From Pseudomonadota bacterium (lineage in GTDB: Bacteria > Desulfobacterota > Syntrophorhabdia > Syntrophorhabdales > Syntrophorhabdaceae), in assembly GCA_026388215.1 (NCBI GenBank), contig JAPLKF010000036.1:1-42892 (forward strand): a stretch of 42,892 bases of DNA, given 5' to 3'. Both the position numbers and the translations under genes were made by a program. Positions 40,955 through 42,892 of this stretch are shown here, piece after piece. A model generated the notes under the pieces. That model was not told the DNA's origin. It was given only the letters and a program-made list of their open reading frames with translations, and searched no databases. Every line of letters starts with the position of its first letter. Position 1 is the first letter of the stretch.

Positions 40955-41596
40955 ATGTTAGTGCGAGATATAATGACCCATAATGTGATAACAATAACCA
41001 GCGACACCTATGTCCTTGACGCCGAGCGAACCATGGAGCTTCACAAAATTGGCCGTCTTCCGATAGTTGACAAGGGGAAGCTGGTAGGTATTGTAACCAA
41101 AGACAATATCTTAAAGGCAAGTCCCTCATCAACTACTCCATATAATCAACGGCAGCTCTTCTATCTTATGTCAAAACTAACCGTAAGGGAAATTATGAAA
41201 ACAGATGTAGTTACGGTAACAGCCGATACTACTATAGAAAAGGCAGTGGCAATTGCTCAGAAGAATCGGGTTGGATCCCTTCCGGTTGTTGATGGAGAAA
41301 GGGTGGTGGGGATATTAACCACAAATGATGTCTTTTACAAAATCCTGAATCCCCTTCTGGGGATAGGAGAAATAGGTAAACGCATTACTATATATGGGGC
41401 TGGAAAGAAAGAAGAGATACAGAAGGTTCTGGACTACGTGAATAAAACAGGCACAAAGATAAAAACCTTCTGGTTTCCTGCTGATCTCGAAAAAAAGGAC
41501 CTTGTCATCCACCTCGATACAGATGATGCTACACCTATAATTTCAGGGCTCAAAGAAATGGGATACTCAGTAGACCTAAGGGAGTTCTCTGCATAA
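40955..41596 (+). CDS. CBS-domain pair protein with ACT-like C-terminus (AcuB-like)
   Basis: A 213-aa cytoplasmic protein. Two CBS domains (about 7-56 and 78-130) each carry the usual MTHNVITITSD / MKTDVVTVTAD opening and (G)RLPIVDKGKLVGIVTKD / GSLPVVDGERVVGILTTND core, which together bind an adenosyl nucleotide. The last about 75 residues look like an ACT-type fold, as in AcuB proteins. It is likely an energy- or ligand-sensing regulator. The partner is not evident from the neighbourhood. An AGAGG ribosome-binding site precedes the start. Confidence 0.9.
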   Translation: MLVRDIMTHNVITITSDTYVLDAERTMELHKIGRLPIVDKGKLVGIVTKDNILKASPSSTTPYNQRQLFYLMSKLTVREIMKTDVVTVTADTTIEKAVAIAQKNRVGSLPVVDGERVVGILTTNDVFYKILNPLLGIGEIGKRITIYGAGKKEEIQKVLDYVNKTGTKIKTFWFPADLEKKDLVIHLDTDDATPIISGLKEMGYSVDLREFSA

Positions 41597-41684: not shown

Positions 41685-41719
41685 TCCCGCCAAAATGTAT
41701 TTCTTCATAAAAAATGGTC

Positions 41720-42041
41720 GGCCATAACAGGTTGTTGCCCAAACAAAATTGTCTGCCGGAACACTGTTTCCCTCGCTGCCGGGTACCCTCTGGGTGTGCG
41801 CGCGGCTTCATCCCGCCCATAGCGGGATTTACCCACTAATGACCCGCCCTCGCTCAATCCACGAACTCGGACTTTGTCCTCAGACAGCGTGGATTGTCCC
41901 CTCGGGAGCACTCGGACGTGCCAAAGTGGGTACCCAAGCCGTACTCGATGTCGCACTCACGAAACAAGTCCCGGCTCGAAGGAACCGTAAGGTTCTTCCG
42001 GCAGTGATGTTCACGAAGCAAAAACTTTGGGCAACAAGGCC
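41720..42041. mobile_element. Putative MITE-like non-coding element with terminal inverted repeats
   Basis: A GC-rich block with no credible gene. TTGTTGCCCAAA (41732-41743) is perfectly repeated in inverted orientation as TTTGGGCAACAA (42026-42037). A second matching pair lies inside it: CTGCCGGAA (41753-41761) and TTCCGGCAG (41996-42004). GGCC flanks both outer ends (41720-41723 and 42038-42041). Internal stems are ATCCCGC/GCGGGAT (41810-41828), a 9-bp stem CAATCCACG/CGTGGATTG (41855-41896) enclosing GGAC/GTCC, and GAACC-GTAA-GGTTC (41982-41995). This fits a small non-autonomous element or a structured RNA. No target-site duplication was identified. Confidence 0.45.
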
Positions 42042-42070
42042 GTCAAGGACAGACCCCTCTCCTGGCTCTC

Positions 42071-42088
42071 TACCGCTTACCGCCTACT
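42071..42088. repeat. Short heptamer array at the end of the flavoprotein gene
   Basis: TAC recurs at 42071, 42078 and 42085 (GTA units on the reverse strand, GCAGTAG, GCGGTAA, GCGGTAG). The array supplies the last two to three codons and the TAA stop of the reverse-strand flavoprotein gene. Confidence 0.65.
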
Positions 42089-42892
42089 GCTTGGACTTTC
42101 TGGTTCAATCCACTCACCAATATCTTTATGCCTGATGGTATTCTTCAGGATTTCCTTTCTTCTCTCAAGGAACCTGTTCTTCATGCCCCTCAGCCATTCC
42201 TTATGCAAGAGCATATGCTCTGGACTGCCGAATATGCCCTCGTCTTTTATTTTTATTCTTTTACCATATTCATCGATTGAAAAATGGCCATGGCAGAGGG
42301 TGCAGATGAATTTTCCCTTTTCCATCCTGACAATTTCGCATCCACAAAAAGGACAACCATATCTGTTCTTGATCATTTCTCTGGAGAAAAGAATCTTTCC
42401 CAGCCTCTTTGCCTTTTCTATATTTCTTTCATCTGTAAGTATCTCCCCAGGCAAGGCGGCTCTCATGTTTAAACTCGCCTTTATATTAAGCCCGAGAAAG
42501 GATGCAAGGCTCATCAGAGTGTGAGGAGCTACCCCTACCCTCTCCTTAACACCATAAATATTTACAAGGATACATGGTTTGCTGTAAGTATTTTCAATAA
42601 AATTATAAAAGAGAAGGCCTCTGTCCAGTATCCTCTTGAATATGCTATGGGCACCAAGAAAATATACAGGTGAAGCAACAATAATTGCATCTGATTGGAC
42701 AATATGGTTTAGCAAAAATTCCATATCATCTTTGTTTGGACATGGTTTATCCATTATGCATCCATAGCATGCCCTGCACGGCAATATCTCAAGGGACGGC
42801 ATTCTTATAAGGTGAAGTTTATGATCAAGCTCAATGTGTCTCGATATCTCCTTGACAAATACTTCGCAGTTCCCAAGTTTTCTTGGAGAACC
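42077..42892 (-). CDS. NADPH-dependent FMN reductase / iron-sulfur flavoprotein-like, N-terminus beyond window
   Basis: The reverse frame is open to the right edge, so the gene starts outside the window. Visible are GSPRKLGNCEVF, the phosphate-binding loop of flavodoxin-like FMN reductases, then the cysteine-rich PCRACYGCIMDKPCPNKDD, which resembles the compact 4Fe-4S motif of iron-sulfur flavoproteins. IVASPVYFLGAHSIFKRILDR follows. The C-terminal about 100 residues add a zinc-ribbon-like CPFCGC...CTLC pair, which is unusual in this family. The protein ends in SPSSRR, whose codons come from a heptamer repeat. A role in electron transfer is inferred. Confidence 0.88.
   Translation of the reverse strand, partial: GSPRKLGNCEVFVKEISRHIELDHKLHLIRMPSLEILPCRACYGCIMDKPCPNKDDMEFLLNHIVQSDAIIVASPVYFLGAHSIFKRILDRGLLFYNFIENTYSKPCILVNIYGVKERVGVAPHTLMSLASFLGLNIKASLNMRAALPGEILTDERNIEKAKRLGKILFSREMIKNRYGCPFCGCEIVRMEKGKFICTLCHGHFSIDEYGKRIKIKDEGIFGSPEHMLLHKEWLRGMKNRFLERRKEILKNTIRHKDIGEWIEPESPSSRR

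Follow-up and report, generated by a model that had tools for sequence, protein, structure and literature searches.

A MITE-like element with IS1182-type ends around a structurally conserved palindromic core in Syntrophorhabdaceae

The window analysed here (that is, the whole 42,892-nucleotide stretch of a Syntrophorhabdaceae contig) carries, near its right end, a CBS-domain gene (40955–41596, plus strand) and an FMN-reductase-like gene (42077–42802, minus strand) that converge on a gap of about 480 bp. An element richer in GC than its surroundings (56.5% for 41732–42037 versus 40.8% for the whole window) lies in this gap and, with its imperfect outer terminal repeats included, spans approximately 41716–42057 as judged from the aligned ends of 38 A-type copies and an insertion sequence (IS), slightly wider than the 41720–42041 of an earlier note on this DNA. 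The same convergent pair stands element-free in G009 (22 bp apart), G005 (73 bp) and G016 (96 bp), these gaps being distances between protein alignment ends that place the insertion point at the level of the gene pair rather than of the exact base. As the earlier note had described, the element carries perfect 12-bp inverted repeats (TTGTTGCCCAAA, 41732–41743, plus strand; TTTGGGCAACAA, 42026–42037, minus strand), for which we estimate a chance expectation of about 0.01 within roughly 500 bp, and an inner matched pair of 9 bp (CTGCCGGAA, 41753–41761, plus strand; TTCCGGCAG, 41996–42004, minus strand). Its internal 9-bp helix (41855–41863/41888–41896) and GTAA-closed hairpin were found as well, the latter (GAACC-GTAA-GGTTC, 41982–41995, plus strand) being an optional part for which many copies have a replacement or nothing. 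The block is indeed non-coding, given that long open reading frames across 41732–42037 are not kept among copies, which differ by insertions of various lengths and therefore share no conserved frame. Both strands fold better than 100 of 100 dinucleotide shuffles (z = −4.25 on the plus and −4.87 on the minus strand), in line with the strong stems noticed before.

The element is a dispersed mobile element. BLASTN, which the earlier note had proposed for finding further copies, matched the block at 20 sites in the own genome and also in 10 of 59 genomes of relatives. Full copies (about 160–354 bp) share the ends TGTTGCCCAAA/TTTGGGCAACA, and six of the seven genomes tested each contain 10–31 occurrences of the exact 12-mer CTGTTGCCCAAA, the family motif of both terminal repeats, compared with 0–1 of the reversed control. 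Among the two-ended A-type copies gathered (n = 38, 46–354 bp), aligned together with the IS, a looser consensus, GTCAnnnnTTnACGGCC, continues outside the 12-mer at both ends, and the terminal repeats are thus about 28–30 bp long and imperfect. Phages, plasmids and viral contigs gave no match to the element, to a synthetic tip query or to the exact tip pattern; a Pirellulales contig with the A-type end pattern was set aside, as it carries no core (described below).

A transposase with matching ends, a further point raised by the earlier note, is present in relatives. The complete IS of G018 (L105) is about 1.6 kb long, has perfect 20-bp ends (GGCCTGTTGCCCAAATCCCT) and encodes a single intact transposase of 469 amino acids that carries Pfam DUF772 and DDE domains and scores 348 bits against the NCBIfam model NF033551 (IS1182; cut-off 270). 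An IS with the element's ends also occurs in G006, in G016 (where left and right IS ends lie on two contigs, L099/L103) and in G014, several contigs of which are cut off within an element that opens with this terminal sequence and codes for a transposase N-terminus. The own assembly holds no close copy of the G018-type transposase; its best relative there is only 32–35% identical, and the partner IS is therefore either missing or unassembled. Repeats are often lost from assemblies of this kind. The own genome contains a second, only distantly related IS1182-family transposase gene (L101 211–1683, contig C259), which is without CTGTTGCCCAAA ends. A 1848-bp A-ended stretch in G008 (L076) was considered as an autonomous copy and rejected, its open reading frames being without a transposase and resembling host genes.

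As its ends are common to an IS1182-family IS, the identification as a MITE-like element with IS1182-type ends is well supported: it is 0.3 kb long without a transposase gene, has its ends in common with an autonomous IS, occurs as dispersed copies and shows insertion polymorphism. Where the earlier note had left the choice between a MITE and a structured RNA, the first half accordingly stands, upheld by the copies, the IS ends and the empty sites. Target-site duplications, which that note had named as a mark to look for, were not visible by eye beside the window copy or in the flanks listed for A-type copies, and for this reason we keep the label to 'MITE-like'. Their absence is not diagnostic, because the IS1182 family includes palindrome-targeting members, among them IS1272, which replaces a stem-loop without leaving a target duplication (PMC5678879). 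A palindromic target is not supported by a copy's own flanks in the present family, given that complementarity between the two flanks of one copy does not exceed that between flanks of different copies or in shuffles; having no flanking palindromes above chance is a difference from IS1272.

The simplest account of such an element (that is, an ordinary internal-deletion MITE of an IS1182-type element with a meaningless interior) would explain why the ends are identical to those of the IS and why very short A-type copies (46–127 bp) occur, but the interior is not IS sequence and is conserved inside other ends, even in G036, where the core is present and the CTGTTGCCCAAA count is zero. We consider this account hardly credible. 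The interior instead contains a conserved core, which a covariance model built from 16 copies (R1) matches at 41819–41969 on the plus strand with 138 bits. By this model the core is present in 19 of 46 genomes of the order, with 22 copies in the own genome, 37 in G008, 34 in G016, 25 in G023 and 14 in G018, and matches appear sporadically across the phylum (18 of 395 genomes, with a few copies in other families).

At least three kinds of ends enclose the core: among the copies classified, 25 have A-type ends on both sides and 8 on one, 10 have ends of the ATTCCAATTTGC..TCAA type or a close variant, and 46 stayed unassigned. In G018, 13 core copies have arms of their own, which change together. 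The type-B motif is dispersed, with 4–18 matches per genome, and with controls at 0–2 its enrichment is weak in the own genome; an autonomous partner or transposase for type-B ends was not found in the loci examined.

Several further element classes were observed in passing. Dispersed elements of 110–270 bp with ATACCAAGTTGCNNTCAA inverted repeats at their ends (L262–L291), some of them containing the core, showed no partner transposase, and a distant core copy in another family of the phylum (L212, G207) is bounded by GTCAAGGGCTTGTTGCCCAAA and ...GGCAACAGCCCGTCAACATTTGAC, which are near-A-type ends. A second class with CTGTTGCCCAAA ends has another interior (CCATCCATAACTG..., GGAAGGTRTTCC...; L092 662–788, L094 478–775, L077 563–909, L066 and L048) and includes a tip, CTCAGGCAG, that resembles the loop of the core. 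In addition, elements of different classes (L006, L010, L008, L093, L077, L188 and L196) contain, in varied positions and orientations, a module of some 30 nt that forms a hairpin (ACGGTTTCATTGCGAAC...GAGCAACA).

The inner matched pair at 41753–41761/41996–42004 forms the basal stem of the core (P1), the arms of which complement each other more within copies (2.67 of 4 outer pairs) than between copies (1.98 of 4). Further in lie an optional hairpin module (ATCCCGC..GCGGGAT, 41810–41828) seen in the alignments of only some copies (L002, L011 and L036) and a core stem, recognized by pairing, alignment and covariation, in which TACCCACT (41830–41837, plus strand) pairs with AGTGGGTA (41925–41932, minus strand). 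The strongest covarying stem is the 9-bp helix (CAATCCACG, 41855–41863, plus strand; CGTGGATTG, 41888–41896, minus strand), in which nine of nine pairs have changed on both sides. Next to it lies a near-invariant asymmetric internal loop, AACTCG/CTCARACA, represented in the window by AACTCG at 41864–41869 and CTCAGACAG at 41879–41887 (both on the plus strand). Its columns are mostly 89–95% conserved, lower at two positions (82–95% per column for the left side), versus a stem mean of 65%. In distant families the stem has a different sequence, with pairing at 6–10 of the flanking positions, whereas neither side of the loop has more than one change. A literature search on the loop motif brought up only unrelated papers with primer-like strings.

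Covariation in the core is strong. An alignment of 100 distinct copies has paired bases in 92.7% of cells and changes on both sides in 391 cells, versus 98 in shuffles, and the covariation score is 0.487 versus 0.172 in shuffled and at most 0.085 in slid alignments; this alignment was fitted to the covariance model, and the counts are not independent, because exchange links the core copies to one another. The same double changes appear when 16 copies are aligned independently with MAFFT. Such a pattern might also arise purely by mutation, if template switching during replication copied one arm onto the other with no selection on the fold. Perfect stems can be both generated and preserved by template switching (PMC8794818), the tips of the core are replaced as blocks, and double changes (114) are far above the wobble intermediates (29 GU); the asymmetric loop, however, is unpaired and near-invariant where the stems are wholly different, and since homogenization would erase such a loop, its constancy counts against template switching alone. 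This makes a purely mutational origin quite unlikely.

Covariation of base pairs usually counts as proof of a functional RNA. RNA tolerates G-U pairs and rejects A-C mismatches, and the RNase P RNA of the same genomes, used as a control, shows this clearly (GU:AC of 80:15 in independent changes and 231:16 in cells, with 9.1% of cells GU and 0.6% AC). Read on the plus strand, the core has GU:AC of 30:58 in changes and 37:69 in cells (1.8% and 3.4% of cells, respectively). Read on the minus strand, the changes become 58:30, or 42:29 once one loop-closing column is removed, a weak tilt, and neither strand has an RNA-like excess. Because G-U pairs in the core do not exceed A-C mismatches, these data favour pairing that is maintained as DNA and not as RNA.

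As for the control itself, the own RNase P RNA (L235 1501–1969; C12:21141–21609) is 469 nt long instead of approximately 367, with the extra 100 nt or so in one hairpin, and long forms also occur in G005 (L243, 465 nt) and G016 (G016:C87, 422 nt).

The main rival reading, a structured non-coding RNA that rides in transposon ends, has the minus strand as its likeliest source and is kept for its RNA fold, would account for the strong covariation around near-invariant loop bases, for the slightly better fold score of that strand (−4.87 versus −4.25) and for its slight wobble excess (58:30). Against this, wobble pairs are rare and the corrected asymmetry (42:29) is weak next to that of RNase P (80:15). 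Moreover, the orientation of core copies relative to genes is unbiased (+E+ 17, −E− 12, convergent 14, divergent 7), no neighbour genes recur beside them, and no Rfam family matches near the element at the gathering threshold or at E values up to 5 (only sub-threshold chance matches appeared among the other loci), in agreement with the earlier note, which had recognized no known family in the element. We judge the RNA reading unlikely: of the RNA half of the earlier alternative, the covariation held and the G-U signature did not. The missing G-U signature, together with copies in either orientation to their neighbours, is better fitted by folding at the DNA level.

The hairpin tips turn over in a manner of their own. 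In three orthologous sets, the flanks are about 83–98% identical, but a hairpin tip or side module has been exchanged as a block: L188 and its paralogue L015 have an identical 83-nt tip, whereas the orthologue in G008 (L195) has a different tip. The 47-nt tip of the window copy is likewise identical in L002 and L003. Tips that are identical in paralogues and differ in orthologues indicate that copy-to-copy exchange occurred repeatedly, and we suggest that this hairpin-for-hairpin replacement may resemble the stem-loop-replacing transposition of IS1272, an IS1182-family member that leaves no target duplication (PMC5678879).

Taken together, the reading that we hold to be probable is a non-autonomous MITE-like element with IS1182-family ends built around a separately conserved palindromic core that can fold as DNA. 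That the core is a structurally conserved mobile DNA is supported, and we infer the mechanism as follows. Given that the ends of the element are those of an IS1182-family IS, the IS transposase could move it in trans, and the core, a branched palindrome of about 230 bp, also travels inside other ends. The core keeps its capacity to fold into a DNA hairpin or cruciform, with stem sequence free to change and pairing and loop retained, perhaps through recognition of the folded DNA or of its AACTCG/CTCARACA loop; IS1272-like stem-loop replacement (PMC5678879) plus gene conversion between copies is a plausible route. A bolder version, in which the core is selfish DNA defined by its folded shape (that is, a protein reads the loop, and stem-loops replace stem-loops inside any transposon ends), is a possibility that we offer tentatively and regard as rather doubtful. 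Movement as a REP/REPIN-type hairpin, with folded single strands as the substrate of a Y1 (RAYT/IS200-like) transposase, appears very improbable: the hairpins are dispersed and intergenic, as in REPINs (PMC3116915), and Y1 transposases are common among these genomes, but G037 and G036 have the core without a Y1_Tnp match, many genomes with Y1_Tnp have no core, and the A-type ends correspond to an IS1182-family transposase of the DDE type.

The element is therefore of a known kind (MITE-like) and an unusual variant of it, the unusual part being the interior core. Like other bacterial MITEs, it is short and gene-free, has ends in common with an IS (the transposase of which is here of the IS1182 family), has many intergenic copies and is absent from the locus in relatives; it differs in that its interior is a structurally conserved core found in other ends and not a deleted IS. 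RU-1 is the imperfect palindrome known as ERIC. RU-1 (127 bp) and RU-2 are enterobacterial intergenic repeat units that, like the present family, are small, mobile and MITE-resembling (PMC2759123), whereas the family described here, compared with ERIC by description, is larger, has covarying stems and extends over several families of another group. REP/REPIN sequences with RAYT (PMC3116915) are also dispersed, intergenic, non-autonomous hairpin DNA, yet REPs are only 20–40 bp long (PMC3733652) and conserved in sequence, whereas the fold here covers 150–230 nt, leaves its stems free in sequence and shows no co-occurrence with Y1 transposases. Because this family combines massive covariation with the lack of an RNA wobble pattern and looks like mobile DNA, it can serve as a test case for distinguishing DNA folds from RNA folds, and its many natural copies, some of them at orthologous sites, offer material on how IS1182-type elements and palindromes replace one another.
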